Positions 11,590-26,534 of a stretch of DNA of 33,931 nt are shown here, piece after piece (position 1 is the first letter of the stretch; each line of letters starts with the position of its first letter). The position numbers and the translations under genes are program-made. Under the pieces are notes generated by a model. It worked only from the letters and a program-made list of their open reading frames with translations. It was not told the origin of the DNA and did no database searches. Origin of the DNA: Candidatus Blautia stercorigallinarum (GTDB taxonomy: Bacteria > Bacillota > Clostridia > Lachnospirales > Lachnospiraceae). The stretch spans positions 1 to 33,931 of the forward strand of contig DXIQ01000019.1 of the NCBI GenBank assembly GCA_019112785.1. Direction: 5' to 3'.

Positions 11590-11716
11590 TATGATACCTA
11601 CGGATTGCTACGTGCTGCGCACTCTCACAATTCTCCCCAATATTCGCATATCGTGGGAAATTCATCCAACTTTCATGCTCATATGTGTGTGTAGACCTTG
11701 GGACCCTGGTATCATA
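11590..11716. repeat. 127-bp intergenic element bounded by 9-bp inverted repeats
   Basis: TATGATACC at 11590-11598 and GGTATCATA at 11708-11716 are exact reverse complements. They enclose a segment whose GC content and style differ from the AT-rich sequence to its left. Inside are small self-complementary pieces, such as GTGC-GCA-GCAC on the minus strand. A 67-codon minus frame (11540-11743) runs through it without a ribosome binding site, so I do not call it a gene. It may be a mobile or repeated intergenic element, or a structured RNA produced by read-through from galK. Confidence 0.45.
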
Positions 11717-23680: not shown

Positions 23681-25627
23681 CTATATATCCAGTGCCGCAT
23701 GGTATCCCCAGTATACTGCATTGGTAATAGTGGATACCTTTGCCGCATCTCCGATCACAGCCACATAAGGCGCTGCATCCCGCAGTTCTTCCACCATATC
23801 TGTCCTGGACCGCTGGCCCAGAGCGCAGATCACTGTAGTACCCGGAACAAGATGTTCTTTTCCTTCTTTATCCTCACAGAGGATCCCCTGATCTGTCACC
23901 TGTTTGCCTTTATATCCTGTATGGACAGTTACATATTTATCAATCTCCGCCAGAAGAAGCGGACGGTGTCTTACATTAGCGTCAGGGGCCAGTTGATCTC
24001 TCATCTCCACTATATGGACCTCCTTGCCTTCCATTCCCAGATGAACGGCGCACTCACAGCCTGCCAGGCCGCCGCCGAATACCACCACTTTATCTGTAAC
24101 CTTATCTTTCTCCAGATAGTAATTGTTGACGATCACTACATTCTCTCCGTCCAGGCCGGGAATCGGCGGCACAAAGGGTCTGGATCCCACGGCAATGATC
24201 AGGGCGTCTGCCCCTTCTTTTTCCGCATACTCTCTGGTCACCTCTGTATTCAGACGGATCTCCACGCCGGCTTCCCTGGCAAAAAGAGCATAGGTCTGGG
24301 CCAGGTCGTACATTTCTTTTTTGAAAGGAATGGCCTGTTCACTTTTCAGAATGCCTCCCAGGGCATTTTCTTTCTCGCAAAGGATTACCTTGTGTCCTCT
24401 TCTGGCCGCTGTCCAGGCTGCGTAAAGACCTCCAGGGCCTCCTCCTGCCACAAGCACTTTTTTCTTCACCGGCGCAGACTGTATCTCCACACCGTCCAGC
24501 TCCCGGCCGATCAGCGGGTTCACCGTACATCTTCTTGTAGAAGTAGCCGCTCTTTCAGCCATGCAGGTAAAGCACCGCAGGCAGTGTACGATCTCCTGAT
24601 CCCTGTTTTCCGTTACTTTTCTTGGCAGATAGGGATCAGCCAGAAGGGCTCTTGCCATATACACGATATCTGCCTGTCCGTCGGCGATGATCTTTTCCAT
24701 CTGTTCCGGGCTGTTCAGTGCTCCGATGGTAGCCACCGGCACCGATACATGTTTCTTGATCTCTGCTGCCAGGTAAACATTACACCCGTGCTCTTTAAAC
24801 ATAGAAGGATGGGTATCACCGAATCCTCTCTGGTAAGTTCCTGCAGACACATGGAGAAGATCTATGTAAGGCTCGATCTGCTTTGCGATCTCCACTCCCC
24901 CAGCCAGATCATATCCTCCCTCAAAAAGTTCGGAACCGCTCATCCGGAACTCAATAGGGAATTTATCTCCCACTGCCTGACGCACAGACTTCAGCACCTC
25001 TATGGCAAACCGGCACCGGTTCTCCAGACTGCCTCCATATTCATCTGTTCGCTTATTAAAATAAGGGGAGAGGAACTGATTGATCAGCCAGCCGTGGCCT
25101 CCATGGATCATCAGCATTTCAAATCCCGCCCTTTTTGCCAGAGCCGCTGTTTTGCCGTAGGCCTCCACGATCTCCCGGATCAGTTCTTTTGTAAGGGCTT
25201 TTACCGGAACGCCGTCAGGCCTTACTGTGTCAGAGGGTCCCCACTGGTTCATGGAATGCTGCCTGTTTTTATCGGTCATATAAGTTCCCGCATACATGCC
25301 GGAATGAGACAGTTCCAGACTGGGGATGGCTCCATGACGGCGGATAGCATCTGCCGTATAAGTAGCCGCCGCCAGGGAATTCAGGATAGAAGTATCCAGA
25401 TGATAGGCATGGGAGCCATCTGTTTTAGGGTGTACCATACACTCACTCACCGTCACCGCCCCGGCGCCTCCTTTTGCCCGAAGTTCATAAAAAGCCGTAG
25501 ACTTTGGTCCGATACATCCGTCATTGGTAATATCTGTTCCGCCCATGGGCGCGGAAAACATACGGTTGCGGAATGTTACATTTCCTATAGTGATCGGCTT
25601 TGTTAAATGTGGATACTTTCTCTCCAT
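23681..25627 (-). CDS. OYE-family NADH:flavin oxidoreductase (2-enoate/dienoyl-CoA reductase type)
   Basis: This encodes 648 residues in three parts. An FMN-binding TIM barrel (about 1-340) holds a proton-donor loop IHGGHGWLINQF near 174-186. A 4Fe-4S motif follows, CLRCFTC then RRC (near 348-366). FAD and NAD(P)-binding Rossmann domains come last (GGGPGGLYAAW near 390, GGGLAGCECA near 525). This is the architecture of 2-enoate reductases, FadH and the bile-acid BaiH/BaiCD group. It reduces an activated C=C bond in an unknown substrate. The loop reads HGGH rather than the HGDR reported for bilirubin reductase, so that role is unlikely. The chosen ATG 25627 has GGGAGG upstream; the frame extends 27 codons further into the structured leader. 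The gene has its own promoter and terminator. Confidence 0.9.
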   Translation of the reverse strand: MERKYPHLTKPITIGNVTFRNRMFSAPMGGTDITNDGCIGPKSTAFYELRAKGGAGAVTVSECMVHPKTDGSHAYHLDTSILNSLAAATYTADAIRRHGAIPSLELSHSGMYAGTYMTDKNRQHSMNQWGPSDTVRPDGVPVKALTKELIREIVEAYGKTAALAKRAGFEMLMIHGGHGWLINQFLSPYFNKRTDEYGGSLENRCRFAIEVLKSVRQAVGDKFPIEFRMSGSELFEGGYDLAGGVEIAKQIEPYIDLLHVSAGTYQRGFGDTHPSMFKEHGCNVYLAAEIKKHVSVPVATIGALNSPEQMEKIIADGQADIVYMARALLADPYLPRKVTENRDQEIVHCLRCFTCMAERAATSTRRCTVNPLIGRELDGVEIQSAPVKKKVLVAGGGPGGLYAAWTAARRGHKVILCEKENALGGILKSEQAIPFKKEMYDLAQTYALFAREAGVEIRLNTEVTREYAEKEGADALIIAVGSRPFVPPIPGLDGENVVIVNNYYLEKDKVTDKVVVFGGGLAGCECAVHLGMEGKEVHIVEMRDQLAPDANVRHRPLLLAEIDKYVTVHTGYKGKQVTDQGILCEDKEGKEHLVPGTTVICALGQRSRTDMVEELRDAAPYVAVIGDAAKVSTITNAVYWGYHAALDI

Positions 25628-25647
25628 TCTTTTTTCCTCCCTTTTCT

Positions 25648-25885
25648 TTGTACTTTTATTCCCGCGGGCAACGAGCCAAGCGGACATGCCGGCATGTCCA
25701 TTTAGCACCGACTGAAGTGGAGCGTAGACCTGCCGCGAGAGTCTAATACCCCGATGCTTGCATCGCTGCTAGCTAGTTTGATGCCCCGTATGCTTGCAGC
25801 GGGGTCTTTGACTTTTCCGTAGAAAACTGTCCCGGCAGACTTGCAGACACGCCTGTGTCCAACTGCCAGAACACTTTTGTCTATT
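25648..25885 (-). ncRNA. candidate structured leader RNA or ncRNA upstream of the OYE gene
   Basis: Read on the minus strand, this region folds into a series of stems. The first is an outer stem CTGGCAG/CTGCCGG enclosing GGACAC/GTGTCT (about 25828-25868). Next are a CCCCG/CGGGG hairpin (about 25784-25804) and CGATG-CAAG-CATCG (about 25752-25765). Last are an 18-base perfect palindrome, GGACATGCCGGCATGTCC (25682-25699), and the self-complementary CCCGCGGG (25661-25668). A promoter lies immediately upstream, and the RNA would run into the OYE ribosome binding site. The density of GC-rich stems in an AT-rich spacer is unlike ordinary leaders. Possible identities are a riboswitch, a conserved large ncRNA such as the raiA motif, or a repeated intergenic element. 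I cannot assign a class. Confidence 0.55.
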
Positions 25886-25891
25886 GTTTTT

Positions 25892-25920
25892 ATTTTAACA
25901 CTTCTGACCTCTTTACTCAA
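25892..25920 (-). promoter_or_regulatory. promoter of the structured leader/OYE gene
   Basis: TTGAGT (complement of 25915-25920) and TAAAAT (complement of 25892-25897) are 17 bases apart, with four and five of six consensus matches. The start point would be about 25885, giving a leader of about 258 bases. Confidence 0.55.
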
Positions 25921-26003
25921 TTCTTTCTATCTTACGTCTAAAATCCGACAGCCGGTAAATGAAACTTAAAGGGAAATTTACTGGTTCTTCTTTCTCTGGC
26001 CCA

Positions 26004-26534
26004 TCACCCAATCATCATCCCTGCCAAAACCACGCTGGCGGCTATCCCTCCAAAAGTGGCTAAAAGAGCCCCAGCTATAGTATACCTGGTCTTGTTTACC
26101 TTAGCCGCGATAAAGTATACAGATACTGTATAAAAAATAGTTTCCGTACAGGACATCATAATAGAGGCGATCAGTCCCACTCTGGAGTCTGTGCCAAACT
26201 CCTTAAAAATATCCAGGACCAGTCCTGTAGCCGCACTGGAGGAAAACATCCTGACAATAGTAAGAGGCACCAGCTCTCCCGGAAAGCCTGCATATTCTGT
26301 GATCTTTCCAAGACTCTCTCCGATCAGATCCAGAAATCCGGAAGCCCTGAGGACCCCCACCGCCACCATCAGCCCGATCAGAGTAGGAAGGATCCCCACC
26401 ACTGTTTTCAGCCCGTCCTTTGCTCCTTTCACAAACTCCTCATACACTTTACATTTATTTACCAGACCATAGGCCACGATATAAAAGATAACTAAGGGAA
26501 TGCTGATCTGAGAAAGAAAGATCATGATCTTCAT
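26004..26534 (-). CDS. spmB: spore maturation protein B
   Basis: This is a 176-residue multi-pass membrane protein of the nucleoside-recognition/Gate family, needed for dehydration of the spore core. Typical segments are KDGLKTVVGILPTLIGLMVAVGVLRASG and MSCTETIFYTVSVYF. It normally pairs with spmA directly upstream; here no spmA-like frame is present within the 371 bases before it. The ATG at 26534 has GGAAGGTG upstream and overlaps by four bases the stop of a possible 31-residue frame. No recognisable sporulation-sigma promoter could be fixed upstream. Confidence 0.93.
   Translation of the reverse strand: MKIMIFLSQISIPLVIFYIVAYGLVNKCKVYEEFVKGAKDGLKTVVGILPTLIGLMVAVGVLRASGFLDLIGESLGKITEYAGFPGELVPLTIVRMFSSSAATGLVLDIFKEFGTDSRVGLIASIMMSCTETIFYTVSVYFIAAKVNKTRYTIAGALLATFGGIAASVVLAGMMIG

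Follow-up and report, generated by a model that had tools for sequence, protein, structure and literature searches.

An OYE-type flavoenzyme gene in Candidatus Blautia stercorigallinarum has a leader made up mostly of a modular, hairpin-rich mobile repeat

REP sequences are short palindromes with a conserved 5' guide tetranucleotide that often flank a Y1 transposase gene (TnpA-REP, or RAYT), and their mobilization by an HUH nuclease of this kind has been proposed. PATE-like derivatives of IS200/IS605 carry subterminal hairpins and insert beside a short fixed target without a target-site duplication (TSD). The BOX repeat of Streptococcus pneumoniae (boxA-boxB-boxC) is described as small, structured and intergenic, with more than 100 copies and a modular build that includes an optional module. 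Its length at one site varies between strains, transcribed copies are thought to affect co-transcribed genes, and it has target duplications and terminal inverted repeats (TIRs), the latter weakly similar to those of ISSpn2 (PMC3049150). Prokaryotic MITEs are described as non-autonomous elements of less than 500 bp with AT-rich intergenic targets, whose transcripts would form stable stem-loops (PMC10969869). Here we report that the structured leader of a flavoenzyme gene in Candidatus Blautia stercorigallinarum consists of host sequence with a single hairpin and, over most of its length, of an inserted mobile repeat that is small and rich in hairpins.

The window, the whole 33,931-nt stretch of DNA that was analyzed (contig DXIQ01000019.1), encodes on its minus strand a predicted OYE-type oxidoreductase of 648 amino acids (23681–25627). 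Its best NCBIfam models are mycofactocin OYE 2, the bilirubin reductase long form and BaiCD, each at about half of its cut-off. An RBS-like GGGAGG lies at 25636–25641. Upstream, a reading of the letters alone (the sequence-only reading) had placed a promoter at 25892–25920 and at least five stems with dense structure before the gene, with no U-run after the last stem. All of this held up. The host promoter-like site of the OYE transcript, TTGAGT-17-TAAAAT at 25892–25920 (minus strand; a consensus match), is the sole such site in 25560–26010, where shuffled sequences give a mean of 0.4, and no terminator-like site was found in the same interval. The named stems are present at or near the positions given for them, and the 281-nt leader folds at -88.6 kcal/mol compared with -76.5 kcal/mol for dinucleotide shuffles (z -2.55; 2/200 shuffles as good). 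The largest fold excess lies in the host hairpin CTGGCAG/CTGCCGG (25820–25885, z -4.84). This hairpin, TGTTCTGGCAG...CTGCCGGGACA with an inner GGACAC/GTGTCT stem, occupies 25828–25873 on the minus strand and lies outside the repeat, as judged from the fold and from the corresponding locus of G151, a genome of the same genus.

Downstream of this hairpin is the repeat copy, 153 nt running from AGTC to GGG (25661–25813, minus strand). A covariance model of the repeat, R1, scores it at 101.7 bits (E 1.9e-23) over 25654–25813, an interval that includes the target bases. Four of the five stems fall within the copy, namely an 18-base palindrome, CGATG-CAAG-CATCG, CCCCG/CGGGG and CCCGCGGG; the first stem lies outside. 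Copies of the repeat are built from a 5' hairpin, H1, which exists in long and short forms, an optional middle module, M, and a core of stacked stems P1, P2 and P3. In the window copy H1 is the long form with an extra GCTA (25740–25813, minus strand), and the core (25661–25738, minus strand) comprises P1 CGCGGCAG/TTGCCCGCGGG, P2 GCTAA/TTGGC and P3 TGGACATGCCGGCATGTCCG, of which P3 is the perfect 18-nt palindrome GGACATGCCGGCATGTCC (25682–25699, minus strand). Between P1 and P2 lies a remnant of M, GGTCTACG...GGTGCTAAA (25701–25730, minus strand), recognized by eye from the full copies L009, L010 and L013. The full module reads GGTCTACG...GTGTGCC/GGCACAC...AGCACCG, which makes the window copy a deletion form in which approximately 30 nt with the GTGTGCC/GGCACAC hairpin are gone between GCTAAA and GCCAAA. 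On its own the window copy folds moderately beyond chance (z -1.87; 7/200 shuffles as good), whereas z -6.1 to -9.5 is reached by five 133-nt copies, of which one comes from the same genome. The modest excess of the window copy is probably due to its being a deletion form.

A BLAST search of the leader against its own genome returned 45 matches, the window included, and R1 returned 78 at E<=1e-3. Discounting 8 opposite-strand shadows and 8 matches to a second family by manual count leaves approximately 62 copies. A typical copy starts AGTCAAA and ends CCCGCGGG, followed by AATAAA. A GCGGGAAT-like 3' end occurs in 59/62 copies (chance rate 26%; the L020 match among the 59 is false by eye), and AATAAA adjoins this end in 46 of the 59. 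H1, M and the core can each be missing and come or go as units, with copy lengths clustering near 184, 154, 133, 103, 74 and 52 nt. The composition can also differ between copies at the same site: M is present in L009 and missing from its counterpart L128, and at the L158 site (L158/L232) the G151 copy has part of M and no H1. At another shared site L031 has as H1 a short, nearly perfect palindrome and L112 a long imperfect hairpin, both arms differing together, a difference that resembles what quasi-palindrome correction might leave. The nhmmer table, in which the first 80 of at least 108 stretches were inspected by eye, showed no split copies of the kind expected from an autonomous parent. 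The second repeat family, seen on contig C108 of the same genome (L156:2180–2513) and also at L174, L178, L179 and L182, has a similar core with a different hairpin and different ends (GGTATACTA...GGTATAATA). At L156 its 79-nt unit stands in tandem 4.2 times, and by eye its right end looks like an extended -10 promoter.

Comparison of filled and empty sites defines where the repeat inserts. The OYE locus of G151, with the counterpart of the gene at 26004–26534 followed by the OYE gene, lacks the element; the flanks and the host hairpin remain, and the stretch with the promoter-like site is mostly retained. The empty join there reads GCGGAAA|AATAAAAAAC. When the two loci are aligned, GCGGAAA|AATAAAAAACAAAAG in G151 corresponds to ACGGAAA|element|AATAAAAGTACAAAG here, and the AATAAAA directly 3' of the element (25654–25660, minus strand) is host sequence that is present in the empty site. 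Since synteny is kept in this one relative only, this site alone does not polarize insertion here against loss in G151. We searched the element-free flanks of 12 further loci in five relatives and fetched twenty places. Three loci gave empty sites readable on both flanks: L014 (G151, G165), L032 (G151) and L034 (G165, G167, G164), the last of which is filled in our genome, G151 and G155. Junction placement is ambiguous by 2–3 nt at L014 and L032. At two more loci the left flank alone aligns, L023 in G151, G165 and G164 and L020 in G151, and runs into AATGAA, AATAAT, AATAAC or AATAAA; our own L020 copy is without its 3' end. One locus, L011, is approximate. L010 in G165 and L015 in G151 and G165 are too diverged to serve as empty sites, L158 is filled in G151, and the remaining loci, L018, L042 and L159, stand outside the empty-site comparison. 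The four two-flank sites and two left-only sites give one rule, in which the AGTC...GGG strand lies directly 5' of a host AATRAA-like sequence or, viewed on the opposite strand, the element lies 3' of TTYATT. Because the readable empty sites retain these bases, AATAAA belongs to the host target rather than to the element. None of the four sites that could be compared filled and empty on both flanks showed a TSD, and there are no TIRs, the ends AGTCAAA... and ...CCCGCGGG not being inverted copies of each other. Insertion without a TSD beside a fixed short target is as expected for an IS200/IS605-derived element. Insertions are also enriched beside terminators: a terminator-like hairpin occurs at 35/92 junctions compared with 46/407 control intergenic AATRAA sites (odds ratio 4.8, p 8e-9). 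This test covered L009–L182 and the window; the junction finder sometimes chose a later AAT, which makes the hexamer list noisier.

Covariation among copies, a check that the sequence-only reading had proposed, indicates that the fold is under selection on one strand. Alignment A1 holds 30 copies of the 133-nt form from relatives, 5 of 35 candidate rows having been dropped for a misplaced start; its core conservation is inflated, as most rows were retrieved with an exact pattern in which some core positions are fixed. In A1, 29 cells change on both sides of a pair compared with 11.8 in shuffles (0/500 as high), and the counts of double-changing pairs (6 vs 4.7; 86/500) and of pair types (17 vs 16.5; 244/500) are within the shuffled range. 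Among these 30 copies H1 alternates between CCCCGCAGC/GCTGCGGGG and CCCCGATGC/GCATCGGGG. Alignment A2 comprises 45 core sequences from the same genome, from G104 and from six genomes with few matches, with the window copy excluded; its rows were chosen by closeness to the P1/P2 consensus and P3 was left free. Over the 58-nt core, compensatory changes occur at 12/21 pairs compared with 3.5 in shuffles (0/500 as high), and 94.8% of cells pair compared with 31–41% in slid controls. Core cells outside the fixed wobbles hold G.T 74 times and A.C 17 times (16 and 3 in A1), and additional core positions are fixed T.G pairs; H1 has little such bias (16 vs 11). A structure formed only in double-stranded DNA would show no asymmetry between G.T and A.C, which argues that one strand folds. 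The folding strand is probably AGTC...GGG, as RNA or single-stranded DNA.

The repeat is widespread in the family and patchy within it. An exact core 21-mer matches at least 108 stretches in named genomes. Among the 80 matches listed, the Lachnospiraceae genera are Blautia, Mediterraneibacter, Lacrimispora, Dorea, Fusicatenibacter, Catenibacillus and others, and the rest are loosely named Clostridia, Eubacteriales, Eubacteriaceae and Firmicutes. R1 matches 54 of the 150 family genomes sampled, our own included, with from 1 to at least 22 matches per genome in this survey, numbers that are lower bounds on copy number. Of 291 genomes drawn from the class, four have R1 matches, two inside the family and two outside. 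One of the latter two, G392, belongs to another family of the class; there the repeat has diverged and has a distinct 5' hairpin with nearly the same core, AGTCGCCAAATG-hairpin-CNCTTGGCTCRTTR; this form (L307, L310) also occurs in tandem and has TTCGCG ends. One viral contig carries a copy (L303:8300–8440, minus strand), with another 5' hairpin and, by eye, among tRNA-like sequences. Plasmids and annotated phages gave no match at the sensitivity used.

Orientation was assessed in our own genome and in the near-complete genome G104, which has 121 matches. In our genome 59/62 copies could be classed: 32 lie between genes in tandem, 17 at convergent gene pairs and 10 at divergent pairs. The tandem-gene sites, with 18 antisense and 14 sense copies, show no clear orientation bias. 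Eight of the 62 copies overlap an ORF call, and some of these calls are probably spurious. In G104, 81/103 chromosome copies oppose the leading strand (37/41 in 0–1.6 Mb and 44/62 beyond), and the bias is gone at 1.6–2.2 Mb (15 vs 12). The 103 copies are the 108 matches on C1 less 3 opposite-strand shadows and 2 weak matches, with the 13 matches on C2 outside the count. More than 95% of the sampled gene length in G104 is on the leading strand at 0–1.15 and 1.98–3.5 Mb; with genes nearly all on that strand, terminator targeting and lagging-strand targeting are inseparable in this genome.

Set against the described systems, the repeat resembles BOX in being small, structured, intergenic and modular, with an optional module and same-site length differences, but it has neither the TIRs nor the TSDs of BOX. 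The 22-nt BOXA1R primer was the sole BOX sequence compared (p 0.8 for the main family, 0.03 for the second family and 0.64 for the G392 type), and homology to BOX drew no clear support from these 22 nt. With REP, BIME and REPIN sequences and their TnpA-REP (RAYT) partners it shares palindromes, an extragenic location, mosaic forms and the absence of TIRs and TSDs, as well as tandem copies (the second family here) and a strand bias in one genome (G104). It differs from them in that our genome, 91% complete so that a missed gene is possible, has no Y1 match, in that no element lies by any of the 43 Y1 genes surveyed, and in the AATRAA target 3' of the folded strand. Like MITEs it is shorter than 500 bp, non-autonomous and foldable as a transcript, with an AT-rich intergenic target, but it has no TIRs or direct repeats and the window copy has a G+C content of 56%. 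Like PATEs it has hairpins and a TSD-free insertion by a fixed short target, but no parent IS was found and the polarity differs. Without the TIRs and TSDs of BOX and MITEs and without the Y1 partner of REP, it misses a defining feature of each. Our best reading is a new BOX/REP-like repeat family, for which the genes surveyed gave no convincing mobilizer. The family is apparently undescribed: the open-access literature searched held no relevant description of such a repeat in Lachnospiraceae. A catalogue of structured RNAs from microbiomes mentions 20 palindromic candidates, maybe REP-like (PMC8040213).

Three readings of the structured leader had been put forward from the letters alone: a ligand-responsive riboswitch for the flavoenzyme, a large known non-coding RNA such as raiA, and a repeated element inserted upstream. 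Of these, the inserted repeat stands. Searching 25560–26010 with the Rfam covariance models gave nothing at the gathering score. Relaxing the threshold to E<=10 brought up a single model, for a human lncRNA (E 0.63, far below its cut-off), and not raiA; a known large non-coding RNA is not supported, and a riboswitch has no credible Rfam match. The position of the structure between a promoter-like site and the gene, with no terminator, means that it is probably transcribed, and in this respect a riboswitch, or some other regulator dedicated to the OYE gene in cis, would be well placed. The structure is nevertheless absent before the same gene in G151, the only relative with synteny, and approximately 62 copies lie elsewhere in the genome beside other genes. 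A leader that is mostly a dispersed mobile repeat is not a riboswitch. We regard that reading as refuted for the inserted part and dedicated control of the gene by the leader as hardly credible. The sequence-only reading had also asked whether the structure was only a known repeat: it is a repeat, and the riboswitch claim falls with that, but the libraries searched do not know it. A broader host role is unlikely. The copies would then be a genome-wide functional RNA or DNA element, acting in chromosome organization, mRNA 3'-end protection or terminator buffering, and no parasite. The enrichment next to terminators, the selection for a fold on one strand and a core kept across families speak for it, as conservation of this strength could mean a cellular function. 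Against it stand the patchy distribution (54/150 family genomes, with from 1 to at least 22 matches and 121 in G104) and sites that are filled in one genome and empty in another of the same genus. We are confident that the leader is host sequence into which a mobile repeat of a small, non-autonomous and modular kind has inserted, most likely passive for the OYE gene.

Such an element would be moved in trans by an enzyme that handles the folded single strand, whether RNA or single-stranded DNA, and attaches the 3' end of this strand to A-rich DNA, often beside intrinsic terminators. A survey of Y1, Y2 and reverse transcriptase (RT) genes over the 150 family genomes gave no convincing association and no mobilizer was found. 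We consider an HUH nuclease like those of IS200/IS605 or REP (TnpA-Y1), which would cut the folded strand on the lagging-strand template and join it beside a fixed target, a tentative candidate at best. Hairpins, a fixed short target and the lack of TIRs and TSDs fit it, as do the 81 of 103 G104 copies that oppose the leading strand, a bias that lagging-strand targeting would give (PMC6006769). That bias, however, is confounded with gene direction and vanishes at 1.6–2.2 Mb, and the tandem sites of our own genome divide 18 to 14. The target is on the 3' side of the folded strand, the reverse of the IS200/IS605 polarity. Y1 genes occur in 32/54 element-positive and 55/96 negative genomes (p 0.86), they are missing from our genome and five other copy-rich genomes (6/17), and none of 43 distinct Y1 genes, surveyed in 30 stretches with flanks of approximately 1.4 kb and 14 with mostly larger flanks, adjoins an element. 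Rolling-circle transposition of the IS91/Helitron type (Y2 HUH) would have the right polarity, since in those elements too a hairpin lies near the 3' end with the fixed target 3' of it, and it likewise needs no TIR or TSD. With Y2 genes in 9/54 positive and 20/96 negative genomes (p 0.67), in 3/17 copy-rich genomes and not in our own, it is improbable. In SINE-like retroposition a transcript would be copied by a group II intron RT or another RT in trans, with a nicked target supplying its T-rich 3' end (TTTATT) as primer. The strand under selection for its fold is the one that meets the target with its 3' end, the priming strand would be T-rich, the 3' junction is readable almost always, and our genome has one RT, adjoining group II intron RNA matches; the strand asymmetry of the core is compatible with RNA copying. 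RT genes occur in 15/17 copy-rich genomes (>=9 matches) compared with 53/96 element-free genomes (p 0.014), a cut-off picked after the data were seen, and the RT match of G067 is a short frame (138 aa). Over all element-positive genomes the comparison is 36/54 with 53/96 (p 0.23), G058 (20 matches, 97% complete) has no RT match, and there is no TSD. The motif in a test for 5' truncation was too loose (chance match rate 59%) and was given no weight. Retroposition seems unlikely to us, and slightly less likely still is the fuller claim of a bacterial SINE-like retroposon family, its structured RNA 3' end joined to T-primed AATRAA targets by an RT in trans, that has dispersed across Lachnospiraceae and also, as diverged forms, into other Clostridia.

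Genes that recur beside elements were clustered from 552 ORFs at up to 181 loci. By eye the 14 largest clusters contain no transposase, integrase or RT; they are broad families, for example a cluster found at 11 loci that by eye is ABC-transporter-like, and we rejected a recurrent neighbor as the mobilizer. A five-member cluster touching elements was set aside as well, with one member that looks like a real protein and the others taken as putative translations of the element.

Returning to the inserted repeat, its effect on the OYE gene would be to add 153 nt of folded RNA, without a terminator U-run, to the 5' UTR. The promoter-like site, the ribosome-binding site and the start codon are intact beside the insert, and the intact sites and the lack of a U-run would permit read-through. 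Most likely, as far as the letters allow, the element acts passively, with read-through and at most a modest change of mRNA stability or level. Within the leader, only the host hairpin at 25828–25873 could serve the gene as a dedicated regulator, either an operator or a small RNA regulator; a by-eye reading finds its outer stem kept in G151 with compatible changes.

These results remove a false riboswitch candidate and supply a defined element, with ends, a target rule, a core fold, modules and a covariance model, for a widespread repeat of common gut bacteria that can seed spurious structured-RNA predictions in them. With TIRs, TSDs and a resident Y1 or Y2 mobilizer all absent, the mode of transposition becomes a question that can be put to the test, and genomes of the same genus differ at sites that show where to look.

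Two further features of the window were observed. A Clostridiales-1 RNA (RF01699, 74.2 bits) lies at 11592–11714 on the minus strand, and by eye a Clostridiales-1-like stretch stands just before element copy L011. The L011 flank (query approximately 486–556) matches at least one further place in each of five relatives, which suggests that the Clostridiales-1 RNA may itself be multi-copy. At 294–353 a 25-nt inverted repeat with a 10-nt spacer and 92% complementarity has the appearance of a terminator.
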